A stretch of DNA of 21,159 nt from a virus: positions 1 through 21,159 of the IMG/VR virus record IMGVR_UViG_3300046534_000950; one strand, 5' to 3'. The notes beneath the pieces were generated by a model. That model saw nothing but the letters and a program-made list of their open reading frames with translations, was not told where the DNA came from and did no database searches. Positions within the stretch are counted from its first letter, which is position 1; each line of letters starts with the position of its first letter. A program made the translations under genes and the position numbers. Of the stretch, positions 918 through 8,177 are shown piece after piece.

Positions 918-2543
918 TTAGCCCAACCCTTCTATTGATAGTTGACAGACCGCCGAGGCGTAAGTCTGGTATATCTCGTCAAATGAATTATAAAACCCGT
1001 ATTGTATTGTCCCTTCTATCCCTTCCTTGGCAACCCATACTACGGGCGTATCCCGTAGGTCTGTTAACTTGGCCAAAACAGCGCTAAACCGCCGGGGCTC
1101 TACGAAAACATCAATATCGCCTACGCTTTTAAATGTTCCTTTTACTATCGTAACTGAGCCTGTCACCTGGTCCGTTGATTTTTGCGAATAGTTTTTTATG
1201 CCATACGAGGCACCATATAAGCTAGTCCCTATTACGAACTCATTTCCCGAGACTACGGCCCCGCATTTTGCAGTATTTGGGCTAGCGATAACTACCGTAA
1301 TAATGCTATCCCCGAAAGCAGGCAAAGAAAAATTTACCATTGATTTGGAGAACTCTAAAGGCTGAAAAAGAAACCTAAAAAAATTGTCTATCCCTAAAAA
1401 CGAAAGCAAGTTAAATGCCTGATTGTAAACTTCACCGTCTGTAGTGCTCCTAATAAAAATCTGTACGGACTTTGCCCCCATATTCATAAGTGCGAGGGCG
1501 CCGGTTATTTTGCCTGGCGTAAATTGAAAAACTATGCCCGGTACGTGCTCCGTAAATGCCGCGCTAGATTGTTTGCTCCAAGTCTGGCCGCTTCTTAGAG
1601 AGTCTGAGCTCGTATTGCTTGTGACGGGGTCGTGCCTATTATAGCTGCTCACCATGCGCCGGCCGGTCTCGGTTAGCCCGTTGTAAATAGTTACTTGTTG
1701 GACTGTACCGTTAAAATTATTGTCAGCGCCTAGATTTTGCCCCCCTAGTTCAAGGATAGCGTTAGAGTCAAAAAGCGCTGTCTGAGCTCCCGTTATGGCT
1801 AGCCCTGCCTGCTCGTATTTTACGAACTGCTCTACGTCCGTATTTGTTAGGCCGTAATAAAAGGTCGCTATCGATTCGGCCCCGTTATCCGAATCAAAAA
1901 CTATTTTAAACCATGCTTTTTCTGTATTTGTAAAGCCGATAGCGTCGGTCTCGTATTCTTCCAGAGAGTCCGTGCCGTCTGCAGAAACAATTAATTTCAA
2001 CCCGCCCGAGGGGATTAATTGTACGGCTAAAGTTCTTTGGTCCGCGGCTTCCGTATATTTAGAGAATATCGTCTGAGCATTACCCGGCGTTGCGTCAGTT
2101 GCGGCAAATCGCCCAGTTATAACTATTTCCTTAGTCGGGAAGTTAGCCAAGTCTGCAGAGCTGGCATAGTTCCCCGTTGCTCCATTTAGCGTTAAGCCTG
2201 GCTGATCTGAATAGGCTTTTTGCGTCTGGTTTTGGAGGATTTGATTAAACATTGCATACTTTAACGTAGACCCTTTAAATTTCCACTTTAGCGGGTGCTC
2301 ACCTGTTGAAGGGTCGTTGCCCTGGTTAGACGCTATTAAATTCTCATAGATTCCGTGAGTAGCTATAGCGGGAGTCGGGGACGCCGTCGCAGTTACTCTA
2401 ACCTCCTCGCCTATTGTTGTATAAGTTGTTGAGTTTAGGTATTCCGCCGGGTCTGCTGCAGGAGTGGACCCGCCCCAGGGCTCCGCGACGTTCGAGTAAT
2501 TTAGGATAGTCTGGTCTATCGTTACAGGAATAATTATTTTCAT
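918..2543 (-). CDS. Tail-tip / minor tail protein with inserted LamG-like domain
   Basis: 541 residues. The first ~105 residues (Tyr/Thr-rich, with GIYENLIASNQGNDP and PLKWKF...KYAMFN) match the N-terminus of a phage minor tail protein family found next to tail-tip genes. In relatives as I remember them, the MF(D/N) motif is followed soon by a PG...AL hydrophobic strand. That strand occurs here only at about residues 335-355 (VFQFTPGKITGALALMNMG). The intervening ~190 residues (about 116-305) look like a concanavalin A/LamG-type jelly roll: GLTLNGATGNYAS, then EIVITGRFA, AWFKIVFDSD, LELGGQ and NFNGTVQQVTIYNG. The start codon overlaps the tape measure stop (ATGA), and the fibre gene follows 3 nt after its stop. 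It probably sits at the distal tail and may bind carbohydrate through the insert. The family assignment is from motif memory, not a search. Confidence 0.7.
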   Translation of the reverse strand: MKIIIPVTIDQTILNYSNVAEPWGGSTPAADPAEYLNSTTYTTIGEEVRVTATASPTPAIATHGIYENLIASNQGNDPSTGEHPLKWKFKGSTLKYAMFNQILQNQTQKAYSDQPGLTLNGATGNYASSADLANFPTKEIVITGRFAATDATPGNAQTIFSKYTEAADQRTLAVQLIPSGGLKLIVSADGTDSLEEYETDAIGFTNTEKAWFKIVFDSDNGAESIATFYYGLTNTDVEQFVKYEQAGLAITGAQTALFDSNAILELGGQNLGADNNFNGTVQQVTIYNGLTETGRRMVSSYNRHDPVTSNTSSDSLRSGQTWSKQSSAAFTEHVPGIVFQFTPGKITGALALMNMGAKSVQIFIRSTTDGEVYNQAFNLLSFLGIDNFFRFLFQPLEFSKSMVNFSLPAFGDSIITVVIASPNTAKCGAVVSGNEFVIGTSLYGASYGIKNYSQKSTDQVTGSVTIVKGTFKSVGDIDVFVEPRRFSAVLAKLTDLRDTPVVWVAKEGIEGTIQYGFYNSFDEIYQTYASAVCQLSIEGLG

Positions 2544-5500
2544 GCGTCCGGGTCTACCTTAGTCGGCGGCAGTCCTTGCCCGTCCCACTTATCTAATAAT
2601 TTATATAAGTTAATAAGCGTCTTCGCCATGTTGAATAGCATGCTAAATAGCCCGCCCTTTGTAGATATTGCGGCCTGGTCGCCGCTCTGCTCTTCCTGTG
2701 TTTCCCTGGCAGACTTTACGCTTTCCCCTTTGTGTAGACTTGCTATATAGCCATCAAAAGGAATTCTACTTTTTCCTGTCTCATGGGACCCGTCGACACC
2801 TTGCCCAGCGTTAGTAAGATTTATTCCTGATTGGATAATATAATCTAGGGCGGTCATGCCTGTCGCTTCTTTGACAAAATCGTAACTAGCGCTATCCATT
2901 ACCGAGGTTATCGCGTCGTCAGTCTGCAAGTGACCATAGCCCAAGGCTATAATTCCCCTAGATACTTTAATGTCCTGCTGTATTTGTTCAATAGTCCTAT
3001 TTACATAACTATTACCTATGTCCGATCCTGTTGCCGCCCTAGATGTTGAGTTTCTGCCAGTTGTGGCTAGGCTTAGGTTTACCGGGTCGTTAGCTGCTGC
3101 GCCTGGGTCTGTAATAGAAAAACCTAAGCCGGTGCTCGTGGGTGCTGGAGAATTGCCGTAGCCATCCGGCCCTACTGTTCCTGTAGATAACACATTTTGG
3201 AAAGGACCCATTACGGCGGCTAATCCGTTAATCTCTAAGGCCAGGCCCTCTAGTGAATTAGTAACTACTATATTGCTACCTACCAAAATATCAGTCGAGG
3301 TAGTCGCCGTTTTGGTTGCCTCGATTGCGTCTATAGCTGCCTGTGTTGCGTTCCGTTGAGCCTCTGTTGCTTCCCCTTGTGCTTCCTCTGCAGTCTCTAA
3401 GCTTGCCGCGTACTCGGTTAAAATTTCGACAATGCCGGTCAAAGTTGTAGACTCTTTTACAGCGCTAAGTATTTCGTCTGGTAAGCCGCTTACATGGCCC
3501 CCAAGCTGCTCCGCAAAAAAATCTAATTGAGCGTCAAAATTCTCGGTCATACCACCAACGCCTAGGAAAGTTCCGGCCGTTCCAAATTGTCCTTCTTGGT
3601 TTACGCCATCAAAAGTAACACCTGCCGTATTTAGCGTGCCCCCTGCTTTTGCTACCGCATCAAATAAGATTTGGTCTACGGCTCTGAACTGGTTCACGAT
3701 GGCCGTAGCGTCGTCTACAGTGCCACGGCGGTTAAAGCCCTGGCCTTGAAACCCACTAGCAAAAGGGTCTATGTCAAACAGCCTGCTAGGGTCGTCCATT
3801 GCGCCTGGAGTAGGGGCAACAAACAAGCCAGAATTAGAGCGCTTATATCCGTCCGGGTCTTTCCAAAAATCATTTTGAGCGGCAAAGATTATAGCGGCCG
3901 CGGCCCAGGTTAAGGGATTTGTCGCTAGAGCTGCTACCGTTGAGCCTACACCCCCGGCGGCGGCGCCGGTAGCAGCGGCACCAGTAGCCGCACCAGTAGC
4001 CGCACCAGTACCGCCAGCGCCATAAAAAGCACCCCAAGCAGCGGCGCCAGCATTAGCTGCAGGCAATGCCGCACTAGTTCCTATACCCAAGGCCCCCAAA
4101 ACAGCACTACTTACACCCTTTAGGACCGTGGACCCGGCGCCATTGGTTATAGCGTCGATCAAATCGACCGCCCCAGAGGCCCCACTTACACCGCCTAGCC
4201 CCGACAATAAGCCGCCAGACAAAGCACCACCGCCAGAAAATCCTAGGAATTGTAAAGCTTTGCTGGCGGCGAATTGAGCGGCGAGCCTGATAAGCATATT
4301 TTTAAACGAGTCGAGCACGGCCTCGGCTGCGCTAGAGCCATTGTTAATCATGTCTATAAAGAAGTCGGCCGTAGAGTCTCTAGCTAATCGCCATTCTCTT
4401 GTCGCGTCTTTTGCGGCCTGGGTCCTCGCTTTTGCTGCCGAATTGGTAGCGGTTTCGTTAGCTTTTATCTCTTGGCGTTCGTCAAATAATACGCCGGCCA
4501 GCGCTCTAACCTCTCTTATTTGCTCGGTAGTGGCGGTAACCCCTAGCTTTCTTTCTTCGTTTAGCAAGAAATTGGCGCGCTCGGATCGGCCTAATGCGTC
4601 TATTTCTTCCTGCAAACCGTTAACCAGGCTCTTAGCCTCGGCCGCGTCTTTTTTCCGCTGCTCTAGCTCTTCGAAAGCTATACGCTCTTTTATTATTTGC
4701 GCCGTTAGCTTTTCTACTTCTATTTTTTGCGCTTCGGTCGCTTTTTCGCCCAGCTTTCTAGCTGTTTCAAGTTTGTATAACTGGTCCTCCGTTAATCCTA
4801 TTTCTGTTATCTCTTGCTCTAGGGAAGCTATTAACTCTTGGGTTTCTTCGTCTAGGCTAGTTACGGCGGTACTACTAGCCCCGGCCGATTCGGTCATAGC
4901 GTCGATCGCGTCGGTTAACTCGTCTGTGGCGTCCGTTAACTCGTCGCTACTGTCTTCCGCCTCTCCTTCAAGTTTGGTTCGAGCGGCTATTAGCTTGTTT
5001 AACAAATCTTGCTGTATTTCTAGGTCTTTCGCTACGGTCCTCTGCCTAAGCATAGCCTTAACATTTAAAGCGCTGGCGTCTTCAAGGTCTTCATATTCCG
5101 CGTTAAGCTCTGCTATTCTATTTTTCACCCCAAGTACGTGCAGGTCTACTACGCCCAGGCCTTGCGCGACAGAGTTAGCCACGGCGCCACCAATAGCATT
5201 ATTTTGGGCTGTCTTCATGTCTTTATAGGCATTAACTACAGCCATCACAGAGGTAGCCACGGCGGCTATGGCCAGCACCACCACCCCAATAGGCCCGCCA
5301 ACTAAAGTCATGGCCGTACCTAGTAGCCCAGTAGCGGTAGCGGCAACACCAGCAGCGGTAGCGGTAGCTGCGAAGGATACGGCAGCAGTACCAAGAGATA
5401 GCACTAAACGGGTAGTGATAACCAAGGCCAAAGCTTTAAGAGCTAAACTAGTTCTCCCTATCCATACCTCGAATCCGTCCGACTCTAAAAAGCCTGTGAG

Positions 5501-6766
5501 CTTGTTAACAAAATCCGTAAATCCTTGAGTACCCGTTCTAAGGCTCGGCGTTAATTTTGAACCAAAGGCTATCTGCAAACCTTCAATAGCACTAGCCGCG
5601 CTTTTTGAATCGCCGGTTAGGTTATCCATGTTAATTTTTGCCTGCTCGGTTGCGGTAGCCGTGCCGGTCATATCAATCTCTAGCTGTACCAAGGCCGCGG
5701 AGTTATCCACTAGCGTCTGAGCTGCTACTACGTTCTGCTTACCAAAAAGGTCGGTCATTTCGGTTATGCTTAGCTGCTTGGCCGCCAGGTTTTCCATTGC
5801 CTGAGCGACGCCGACTATTGACGGCTTAAGGTTGTCGTCTGTCTCCTGCTCTAGAGTTAACAAAATATTTCTTAGACCAGTGCCGGCTTCTCCCGCCTTT
5901 ATGCCCCCAGAGGCTAGAGCCTGGATAGCGGCGTTAGTAGATTCGAAGGATAGCCCGGCAGCATTTGCCGCGGCTCCTGAATTCTTTAATGCCATGGCTG
6001 TGTCGGCTATTGAGCTTGCGCCGAACTTAGAACCCGCGGCTAGAACATTAATAAACCTATTGGCCTGCTCTGCTCCCGCCCCAAATTGATTTAAAGAGGT
6101 GCCAACGGTATCGGCAGCCTGGGCTAAATCAATTTTTGCAGCTTCGGCTAGGGTTACCGCTTCCCGGGTAACAGAGTTAAGCGCTTCGGCAGACTGCAGC
6201 AAATCAGGCTTAGCGGAAGCTATTAGTTTAAATGCCGTGGCGGCTTCGGAGGCGGAAAGGGTCGTAGTGCGGCCAATCTCTTTAGATTGCTCTGTTAGAT
6301 ATTCTAGGTCTTTGCCTACCGCTCCAGTAATAGAGGAAAGTTCTGATATTGAGGCGTTAAATTGATTGGTAGCTGTTATGGCACCAGACAGCGCTTTAAC
6401 TACACCCATCGCGGCTAGGGCGGCCCCGAGCGCTGCTACTGCAGACTTCGCGCCAGAAAAACCTTTTGACATTTCCCCCGTTGCTGTTTTGGTTTTTTTG
6501 CCCGCGGTCTCTACTTTGTCGCTAGTCTTTTTAGCTTCGTTACCTAAGCCGGTCGCCGCGGTTTTGGCCCCAGTTAAGCCCTTAGACATATCCGCGGTGG
6601 CCGCTTTGGTTTTGTTGCCTGCAGAGGTTACATTCTCGCCGGTCTTTTTGGCAGAGGCGCCCAGGCTGTTAGCCGAGGCTTTGGCTTTCTGTAGCTCTTG
6701 ATTGGCTCGCTTAAGGTCGCTTGTATCTACGCGGACCTTCCAAGTAATCTCACCTAAATTAGCCAA
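2540..6766 (-). CDS. Tape measure protein
   Basis: 1408 residues; sets tail length and occupies the tail lumen before DNA ejection. The start is TTG at 6766 (LANLGEITWKVRVD), placed 4 nt after the chaperone stop with AGGG upstream; no ATG fits better. Order of parts: two 39-residue repeats (35-112), a TP901/PhageMin-tail-like region (about 130-400), a strongly hydrophobic Ala/Gly stretch (about 440-512), coiled coils with two related segments (YKLETARKLGEKATEAQ and LLNEERKLGVTATTEQ), a lambda-type C-terminal segment (DFFIDMINNGSSAAEAVLDS, near 800), an Ala/Gly low-complexity part (near 900-960), and a C-terminal motif ending HKGESV. Scaling from lambda (about 0.15 nm of tail per residue) suggests a tail near 200 nm, if it is not processed. 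Its stop overlaps the next start (ATGA). Confidence 0.95.
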   Translation of the reverse strand: MANLGEITWKVRVDTSDLKRANQELQKAKASANSLGASAKKTGENVTSAGNKTKAATADMSKGLTGAKTAATGLGNEAKKTSDKVETAGKKTKTATGEMSKGFSGAKSAVAALGAALAAMGVVKALSGAITATNQFNASISELSSITGAVGKDLEYLTEQSKEIGRTTTLSASEAATAFKLIASAKPDLLQSAEALNSVTREAVTLAEAAKIDLAQAADTVGTSLNQFGAGAEQANRFINVLAAGSKFGASSIADTAMALKNSGAAANAAGLSFESTNAAIQALASGGIKAGEAGTGLRNILLTLEQETDDNLKPSIVGVAQAMENLAAKQLSITEMTDLFGKQNVVAAQTLVDNSAALVQLEIDMTGTATATEQAKINMDNLTGDSKSAASAIEGLQIAFGSKLTPSLRTGTQGFTDFVNKLTGFLESDGFEVWIGRTSLALKALALVITTRLVLSLGTAAVSFAATATAAGVAATATGLLGTAMTLVGGPIGVVVLAIAAVATSVMAVVNAYKDMKTAQNNAIGGAVANSVAQGLGVVDLHVLGVKNRIAELNAEYEDLEDASALNVKAMLRQRTVAKDLEIQQDLLNKLIAARTKLEGEAEDSSDELTDATDELTDAIDAMTESAGASSTAVTSLDEETQELIASLEQEITEIGLTEDQLYKLETARKLGEKATEAQKIEVEKLTAQIIKERIAFEELEQRKKDAAEAKSLVNGLQEEIDALGRSERANFLLNEERKLGVTATTEQIREVRALAGVLFDERQEIKANETATNSAAKARTQAAKDATREWRLARDSTADFFIDMINNGSSAAEAVLDSFKNMLIRLAAQFAASKALQFLGFSGGGALSGGLLSGLGGVSGASGAVDLIDAITNGAGSTVLKGVSSAVLGALGIGTSAALPAANAGAAAWGAFYGAGGTGAATGAATGAAATGAAAGGVGSTVAALATNPLTWAAAAIIFAAQNDFWKDPDGYKRSNSGLFVAPTPGAMDDPSRLFDIDPFASGFQGQGFNRRGTVDDATAIVNQFRAVDQILFDAVAKAGGTLNTAGVTFDGVNQEGQFGTAGTFLGVGGMTENFDAQLDFFAEQLGGHVSGLPDEILSAVKESTTLTGIVEILTEYAASLETAEEAQGEATEAQRNATQAAIDAIEATKTATTSTDILVGSNIVVTNSLEGLALEINGLAAVMGPFQNVLSTGTVGPDGYGNSPAPTSTGLGFSITDPGAAANDPVNLSLATTGRNSTSRAATGSDIGNSYVNRTIEQIQQDIKVSRGIIALGYGHLQTDDAITSVMDSASYDFVKEATGMTALDYIIQSGINLTNAGQGVDGSHETGKSRIPFDGYIASLHKGESVKSARETQEEQSGDQAAISTKGGLFSMLFNMAKTLINLYKLLDKWDGQGLPPTKVDPDA
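3975..4010 (-). repeat. 12-bp tandem repeat inside the tape measure gene, 3 copies
   Basis: On the plus strand gcggcaccagta is followed by two identical copies of gccgcaccagta. The phase is a multiple of three, so it encodes an in-frame Thr-Gly-Ala-Ala repeat in the Ala/Gly-rich part of the tape measure protein. It could change copy number by slippage without breaking the frame. Confidence 0.85.
6431..6664 (-). repeat. Two 39-residue tandem repeats in the N-terminal part of the tape measure protein
   Basis: Residues 35-73 (LGASAKKTGENVTSAGNKTK...) and 74-112 (LGNEAKKTSDKVETAGKKTK...) align without gaps. Shared positions include AKKT, AG.KTK.AT and MSKG..GAK. The DNA copies lie at 6548-6664 and 6431-6547 and have diverged more than the protein, so this is an old duplication kept under coding selection. 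The unit is Lys/Ala/Thr-rich and probably helical. Confidence 0.85.
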
Positions 6767-6770
6767 TCTC

Positions 6771-7226
6771 TTAACCCTTTTTGTTAGCCTGCATTTTAGC
6801 GAAATTTTGGAAAGCTTTTTCTATTCCGCTAGCGATAACCTTTCGATCTATTCTCCCGTTATTCCATGGAGCTATTCGTTTAGGGTCTTTGGATAAAGAG
6901 GCCTCTTGAGCAAATAATACGCTAAGGCCTCTTATTGTCTGATACTCCCAGGCCGTTAGCGCTAACCCTACCGATTTAGACCAATTGCTTAGCTCAGTCC
7001 AGGTTATCGGTATAACGCCATCCCCGTTATGGAGGACCGGCCCCACTTCGTAGAGATATTCTACAATGTGCTCGGCTCCTTCGAGCTCCGGGTAAACAAT
7101 CTCCCCGGAACCCTCCAAAGTTTTTTGTCTAGTTTGTTGACTCCCCGTCATGCCCGTAGTCTCAGGTATGGACTTAAGCCATGCGTCGTACCTAACGTAG
7201 ATAACTAATCTAGTTAGGCTTGCGTC
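6771..7226 (-). CDS. Tail assembly chaperone, T part of the G-T frameshift fusion
   Basis: This frame has no convincing start of its own. The first ATG (7151) has only a weak TGAG upstream, and the frame stays open through it back to 7232, directly next to a stop at 7233-7235. It is entered by a -1 slip in gene G, giving a fusion of about 281 residues over 6771-7615: 130 from G, then DASLTRLVIYVRYDAWLKS and on to the end. The G-T product is known in lambda to bind the tape measure protein while G-only molecules coat it, which fits its place directly upstream of the tape measure gene. The T part is 151 residues with a Trp-rich middle (PITWTELSNWSKSVGLAL...WEYQTIRG). It should not be annotated as a free 126-residue protein. 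Confidence 0.87.
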   Translation of the reverse strand, partial: DASLTRLVIYVRYDAWLKSIPETTGMTGSQQTRQKTLEGSGEIVYPELEGAEHIVEYLYEVGPVLHNGDGVIPITWTELSNWSKSVGLALTAWEYQTIRGLSVLFAQEASLSKDPKRIAPWNNGRIDRKVIASGIEKAFQNFAKMQANKKG

Positions 7227-7232
7227 AAAAAA
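7191..7232 (-). promoter_or_regulatory. Programmed -1 ribosomal frameshift signal (slippery site plus stem-loop)
   Basis: On the minus strand the 0 frame reads AAT TTT TTG ACG, which contains the heptamer T TTT TTG (X XXY YYZ) ending at 7226. A 7-nt spacer (7225-7219) is followed by a stem: CCTAACTAGAT (7218-7208) pairs with ATCTA and GTTAGG (7202-7198, 7196-7191) around a TAGTT loop, with one bulged C at 7197. That is 11 base pairs. The 0-frame stop TAA (7216-7214) lies inside the stem, and a -1 frame stop lies just before the heptamer. Position, spacing and frame all match lambda-type G/GT frameshifting. Confidence 0.92.
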
Positions 7233-7615
7233 TTAGCACGATCCGCTATAAACTCGTCTACCTGCTCGCGGACCCATCTAAGGCTAGAATACAAGTCCTC
7301 CGCGGCCTCTACGGAAAAATCTAGCTCGCTGTCTTCGTCTAATTGAAGAGTCCAGCCAATAGTGCAAGCGGCTAGCAATTCGTTACCCTGCCGCTCGGAT
7401 TTCTCTAAGCTGTTTTTTACTTTCCGCTTTCCTAGTTCACGGTTAGCTATCTGGGCGGACTTTTTACGATACTTGCCCGAATCCATGCCAACTAAGCGGA
7501 TAATCATTTTCTTTTTGCCGTCGGTAAAAAGCGGCTCGTAAGTGGTGGGGTGCAACAATACCAAGTCTGCGCCCTCCTCTGACTTCTCCTCTAAATTGAT
7601 TTCTTGTAACTTCAT
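7214..7615 (-). CDS. Tail assembly chaperone G (0-frame product)
   Basis: 133 residues, charged and helical in its second half (GKRKVKNSLEKSER, then a C-terminal EDLYSSLRWVREQVDEFIAD). Size, position between tail tube and tape measure genes, and the frameshift near its 3' end identify it as the lambda gpG-type chaperone. That protein assists tape measure folding and tail tube polymerisation and is not kept in the virion. ATG at 7615 follows GAGGA by about 4 nt. The leader upstream is heavily structured (7623-7700). The last residues (LTQA) are read only by ribosomes that do not slip. Confidence 0.87.
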   Translation of the reverse strand: MKLQEINLEEKSEEGADLVLLHPTTYEPLFTDGKKKMIIRLVGMDSGKYRKKSAQIANRELGKRKVKNSLEKSERQGNELLAACTIGWTLQLDEDSELDFSVEAAEDLYSSLRWVREQVDEFIADRANFLTQA

Positions 7616-7622
7616 AAATCCT

Positions 7623-7700
7623 CGCTGCTATTGCGTTAGTGGCTGCTAGTAAATTATTAACGTGGGGAAAGGCGGCTAGCAGCGACAACCTTTCCCCACG
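7623..7700 (-). promoter_or_regulatory. 12-bp hairpin with possible pseudoknot in the tail tube - gene G leader
   Basis: A perfect 12-bp stem CGTGGGGAAAGG / CCTTTCCCCACG (7700-7689 and 7672-7661) encloses a 16-nt loop, 19 nt after the tail tube stop. The downstream tract (TTAATAATTT) is a poor T-run, so it is only a fair intrinsic terminator. The loop contains CGCTGCTAG (7684-7676). Its complement occurs twice downstream: CTAGCAGC at 7649-7642 and TAGCAGCG at 7630-7623, the latter abutting the gene G ribosome binding site AGGA (7622-7619). Attenuation of readthrough, transcript-end protection or control of G translation are all possible. The function is inferred. Confidence 0.68.
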
Positions 7701-7718: not shown

Positions 7719-8177
7719 TTAGACCGGCGCATCCTCGAAAAGCACCTGCCCGACCACTTCCAACATCATCGATTTGGAAACAATATCGTTAACCGTTCCT
7801 ATCGTTATTGGATTGCTCATTATTTGAGTCGTAAAATAGATATGTTTGCCGGATTGCAAAACAATACGCACGGCCTGGTCGAGGTCGCTATCTATCAAAG
7901 CCTCTAAGGCCGATTGCCCTGCGTCCGATTCATCTACAGCGTATTGGACCGTCAAGGAGCCGTCGTTAAAAGATCCTTTTCGCTTTACGGTCCCGCGCTC
8001 TGCTAGGCCTACATGGGTTACCCCACTATATAGGCGGCCGAATTCTGGAATATTGGTTACTTCCCCTACGGCTGTAAAGGTAACGGCTTCAAAACCGGCT
8101 TTATCGTAGCTAGCGGGGGCGGCATCACCTATAGAGATAACCGAACCGGCAGCGGTAAAAACATTACTTTCAGGCAT
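7719..8177 (-). CDS. Major tail tube protein
   Basis: 152 residues, predicted mostly beta, with no membrane segment. It has the usual tail-tube features: an N-terminal GSVISIGD strand, a central EVTNIPEFGRLYSGVTHVGL loop, the motif DESDAGQSALEAL before a short helix, and a C-terminal strand pair (MMLEVVGQVLFE). Hexameric rings of such proteins stack around the tape measure protein. The gene lies just before the G/GT chaperones, where lambda carries gpV. ATG at 8177 follows CGGAG by 9 nt. The large hairpin just downstream would suit a highly expressed structural gene. The preceding gene appears to be a shorter paralogue. Confidence 0.83.
   Translation of the reverse strand: MPESNVFTAAGSVISIGDAAPASYDKAGFEAVTFTAVGEVTNIPEFGRLYSGVTHVGLAERGTVKRKGSFNDGSLTVQYAVDESDAGQSALEALIDSDLDQAVRIVLQSGKHIYFTTQIMSNPITIGTVNDIVSKSMMLEVVGQVLFEDAPV

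Follow-up and report, generated by a model that had tools for sequence, protein, structure and literature searches.

A predicted −1 ribosomal frameshift joining tail assembly chaperones G and T in a virus record and its relatives

The window, the whole 21,159-nt stretch of DNA analysed here (a 21 kb virus record, to which all coordinates refer), very probably carries a programmed −1 ribosomal frameshift of a siphovirus-type tail-chaperone pair, with G and G-T as its products. The G/T cassette lies on the minus strand. A frameshift joining these two tail chaperones had been proposed in a first-pass annotation of the same DNA, a reading strongly supported at the level of sequence by the order of the genes, by matches to protein families and by some 79 non-redundant relatives. 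The slippery heptamer, its phase, the conserved coding in the −1 frame, the order of the genes and a family-wide excess of structure downstream of the heptamer all rest on the sequence and its comparison with relatives.

The slip site and the genes it joins

The 3′ end of G reads AAT TTT TTG ACG CAA GCC TAA. The T_TTT_TTG heptamer (7226..7232, minus strand) stands in the X_XXY_YYZ phase of −1 slippage, AAT TTT TTG, as the first-pass annotation had it, and the 0-frame UAA stop of G follows 16 nt downstream (7214..7216, minus strand). Equally borne out by the sequence was its description of the −1 frame as shut immediately upstream of the heptamer and then open through 151 codons: a TAA at 7235-7233 abuts the 5′ side of the heptamer, and from TTT TTT onward the frame runs to a stop at 6773-6771, with NFL|DASLTR as the predicted junction. 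The in-phase TTTTTTG is the sole instance among the 6,220 codons of the window, and of its 31 in-phase X_XXY_YYZ sites (Y = A/T) this one has by far the longest −1 frame, 153 codons, the next longest being 52. The spacer ACGCAA (7220..7225, minus strand) is 6 nt long, or 7 nt if the outer G-U pair of the hairpin beyond it is left uncounted. Inspection by eye for a Shine-Dalgarno-like stimulator upstream of the heptamer revealed none, and Rfam gave no match over 6700-7700.

Slipping and its rate, stimulation by this hairpin and the part played by each product are inferred, as follows. The majority of ribosomes would read G through to its UAA. In a minority, the Phe and Leu tRNAs on TTT TTG would slip back onto TTT TTT, and the slipped ribosomes would go on for 151 codons to yield a G-T fusion with a Phage_TAC_18-like domain at its C-terminal end. 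If the two products act as lambda gpG/gpGT do, coating of the tape measure protein would fall to G, and recruitment of the major tail protein to the less abundant G-T. The slip rate would set the ratio of G to G-T, and the hairpin, positioned 6-7 nt past the heptamer, would probably boost that rate.

Gene G (7214..7615, minus strand) encodes the 133-aa 0-frame product, identified as a tail assembly chaperone by its ORF, its match to phrog_313 "Tail assembly chaperone" (E 1.4e-13), its predicted structure and the gene order. The AlphaFold model of G has a pLDDT of 81, and its matches in BFVD are annotated tape-measure or tail chaperones; a Foldseek search of the model against the PDB gave no meaningful match. 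T (6771..7232, minus strand) is the coding sequence of the −1 frame and the C-terminal part of the predicted G-T fusion, as indicated by the sequence, relatives, Pfam and its own model. This model has a pLDDT of 85 and a confident helix at residues 2-20, and its BFVD matches are likewise annotated chaperones. Against Pfam Phage_TAC_18 the window's own T scores 17.5 bits, under the curated cut-off of 27, and the T of two relatives lies above it (L005, 34.4; L088, 28; L-numbers are labels of relatives).

The G and T models also hit the same single chains in BFVD, namely the tape measure chaperone of Escherichia phage Seurat (268 aa), the chaperones of Acinetobacter phage Loki (262 aa) and phage K1H (259 aa), and A0A7L8ZK78 (232 aa). 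From a match table that is without target ranges, the two models would appear to match different halves of those chains. The likeness to the single-chain chaperones of Seurat, Loki and K1H lies in the matching of the same chains by both models, whereas these proteins are distant, and their deposited product is one long chain where T is unannotated or separate in the window's related isolates.

The two overlapping frames, the second in −1, sit between the genes for a major tail protein (7719-8177, by phrog_158) and a tape measure protein (2540-6766, by PhageMin_Tail), giving the order major tail protein, G, T, tape measure protein. When the window was compared with phage records by megablast, nothing matched, and no phage isolate is a near match; an NCBIfam search returned nothing relevant. 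A 541-aa ORF (918-2543, minus strand) closely follows the tape measure gene. Its C-terminal 200 residues match phrog_6278, a family of unknown function; the N-terminal part has, by eye only, the look of a laminin-G/concanavalin-like candidate domain.

Coding in the −1 frame among relatives

Searches returned 177 loci, or 79 once redundancy around the G stop is removed. Of the 75 non-redundant relatives that could be tested, 74 have a −1 frame free of stops over the 90 nt that follow the G stop; in the same 90 nt, stops occur in the 0 frame of 51 relatives and in the +1 frame of 54. Among eight gap-free relatives, differences after the stop fall 193, 126 and 246 times on the first, second and third positions of −1 codons, and the mean BLOSUM62 score is 2.68 in frame −1 versus 0.25 and −0.05 in the other two. 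A T-type X_XXY_YYZ heptamer is present in 67 of the 79 relatives, mostly at ≤30 nt from the stop. TTTTTTG is the commonest form (35 relatives), followed by AAATTTT/C, TTTTTTC and TTTTTTT.

These heptamers bear on whether the extra product could arise from transcriptional slippage on the T run, not from slippage of the ribosome. The run comprises six Ts in the window and reaches seven or eight in certain relatives (L013, L015, L029), which would suit such an origin; six Ts is, however, a short run for polymerase slippage, and many relatives carry AAATTTC or other non-homopolymer heptamers. The heptamer is moreover held in codon phase, and the structure downstream of it is under selection, both of which argue for ribosomal slippage and leave the transcriptional route highly improbable.

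Some relatives depart from the common arrangement. L009, L019, L066, L068, L083, L084 and L119 keep the −1 overlap and are without an X_XXY_YYZ heptamer, and by eye just a tetramer, such as T_TTT or G_GGG, is found at the same place. In Curvibacter phage P26059A (L180, 1255-1290) T lies in the +1 frame of G instead of the −1 frame. There the junction is AAC TTT CGA CCC AAA TGA, from which slipping by +1 at TTT_C would yield NF-DPNDLEEALAYL. This phage may have switched the direction of its shift while keeping the fusion; a one-base sequencing error is also possible.

Among the relatives the second frame codes immediately after the slip site and is without a conserved start of its own. The motif YVRxxAWL, conserved in the −1 frame, lies upstream of ATG 7151, and the phrog_18915 score of T rises from 38.6 to 42.6 bits once the part before this ATG is included. 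Were T instead an independent gene initiated at ATG 7151, with no frameshifting, its product would be the 126-aa ORF that does extend from this ATG (6771..7151, minus strand), and annotators of related phages in GenBank do call such separate ORFs. Yet ATG 7151, the only plausible internal ATG, is not conserved in position among relatives and is preceded by no good Shine-Dalgarno sequence. The −1 protein is conserved from the heptamer onward, which lies 27 codons ahead of this ATG, and the −1 frame is open across the G stop in all but one of the testable relatives. The confident helix in the T model precedes the ATG as well, and a free 126-aa protein would be predicted to lose it. An independent T is thus scarcely credible, and the apparent free ORF, with its unconserved ATG and with conserved −1 coding that starts upstream, is probably an internal reading of T and not a separate gene.

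The misannotation of T that had been feared at first reading proved real, as T stands in GenBank isolates as a separate "hypothetical protein" or is absent, and G in the isolates examined is mostly "hypothetical". T is missing from the annotation of Xanthomonas phage DoCa5 (L175); in this phage, Pseudomonas phages PaMx74 and PaMx28 (L176 and L179) and Alteromonas phage R7M (L177), it is either unannotated or a short separate hypothetical protein. The annotations of PaMx28 and PaMx74 place "terminator" features inside the T region or immediately beyond it.

The downstream hairpin and the stop codon within it

Beyond the spacer lies the hairpin GCCUAACUAGAU-uaguu-AUCUA(c)GUUAGGU (7190..7219, minus strand), a putative frameshift stimulator on the basis of its fold energy, a synonymous null and the relative L028. 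It has 12 pairs with the outer G-U and 11 without; its loop is 5 nt long, and a C bulges out at 7197. The 7-nt spacer and 11-bp stem with a bulged C of the first-pass annotation hold, give or take this terminal G-U. The stem starts 6-7 nt after the heptamer, within the 5-8 nt expected of hairpin-stimulated −1 sites. The fold reaches −13.2 kcal/mol in 45 nt and outdoes 99.2% of those windows whose GC content is the same or lower. Under a synonymous-codon null in which the −1 protein is kept, P is 0.03 with the codon usage of the window and 0.012 with that of the locus. Taken alone, the hairpin is only moderately significant.

Structure after the heptamer is also in excess across the family. By dinucleotide shuffle, the z at the site is −1.05 versus a background of −0.15. 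The synonymous null applied to 54 relatives gives a mean z of −0.84 (Wilcoxon P 1e-5, a value that treats related phages as independent), and control positions in T have average z values between −0.33 and +0.12.

The exact helix is clearly common to the window and just one relative, L028, where the same outer helix takes the form GCCUAAC/GUUAGGC with a G-C replacing the terminal G-U; most other relatives differ, and beyond L028 neither this helix nor the sequence of the stem is preserved. Alignment of relatives had been put forward at the outset as a check on whether heptamer and stem covary. A T-type heptamer is indeed kept in 67 of 79, but covariation of the helix is weak when taken column by column (across 11 relatives only 56% of cells form pairs), and shifting the register by −3 gives a similar score, which makes the register ambiguous. 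A GUAAC/GUUAC stem in an Acinetobacter phage was considered as a homologue of that in the window but is not put forward as one, its 5′ arm being displaced by one codon in the protein alignment. Both frames and the heptamer persist in several close relatives (L013, L029, L030 and L088) that lack a strong stem, and the stem may therefore not be needed for the frameshift.

Such relatives, along with the lack of column-by-column conservation of the helix, are what would be expected if the frameshift were real and the hairpin incidental, the heptamer alone slipping enough, as in the published account of phage P2, where, as in P2-like phages, TTTTTTG is used and no hairpin has been found (PMC3091744). 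This reading is possible but rather unlikely, as the fold in the window beats the synonymous null with either codon usage, the structural excess of the family appears at the position downstream of the heptamer and is absent at control positions, and L028 retains the same outer helix. The hairpin thus probably does raise the slip rate.

The UAA of G (7216-7214) is paired within the 5′ arm of the hairpin. The first-pass annotation was right to place the stop inside the stem, but as a special feature this arrangement does not hold up, given a precedent in SARS-CoV-2 and the pairing found in the family. Among 47 relatives with the G stop in the folded stretch, 9 have all of the stop paired, 13 have part of it paired and 25 have it unpaired. 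With full pairing in 9 of 47, a stop within the stem, as far as predicted pairing goes, therefore recurs among relatives but is no family rule. It is very unlikely that the stop-in-stem is a tuned device in the phage lineage of the window, in which a terminating ribosome would melt the hairpin, and the spacing of ribosomes at the UAA and the speed of release would set the frequency with which the next ribosome encounters a folded stem and slips. If true, such a device would couple the G:G-T ratio to translation load.

Relation to known frameshifts

Phage P2 and its relatives use a TTTTTTG heptamer for the −1 frameshift of E/E+E′, for which no downstream hairpin is reported (PMC3091744). The site in the window shares with that system an identical heptamer, the −1 direction and a place between the major tail and tape measure genes, whereas P2 is contractile-tailed, employs other protein families and is without a reported hairpin. 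The lambda scheme of G/GT, the function of which has been reviewed (PMC5009743), resembles the present one in its short chaperone and rarer −1 extended form, encoded just before the tape measure gene. The heptamers differ, being GGGAAAG in lambda according to the first-pass annotation and TTTTTTG here. This difference stands, but the novelty that it had seemed to confer does not, because P2 uses TTTTTTG (PMC3091744). No sequence match of the window's G/T pair to lambda G or T was obtained in the family searches run.

For the stop codon, the frameshift element of SARS-CoV-2 ORF1a/1b likewise has its 0-frame UAA inside the stimulatory structure, in stem 1 (PMC8256030). It is a precedent for geometry only, as that element has a pseudoknot as its stimulator and another heptamer, and belongs to a eukaryotic virus with unrelated genes. 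The site is thus ordinary in kind, both of its unusual features, the heptamer and the stop within the stem, having precedents, and it leaves the understanding of frameshifting unchanged.

What emerges is a diverse family of 79 non-redundant sequences, largely from uncultured phages. The family conserves the G-T frameshift and yet stands in the GenBank isolates examined as two hypothetical proteins or without T. The natural variation of the family in heptamer, distance to the stop and hairpin provides material for studying how slip rates are tuned.
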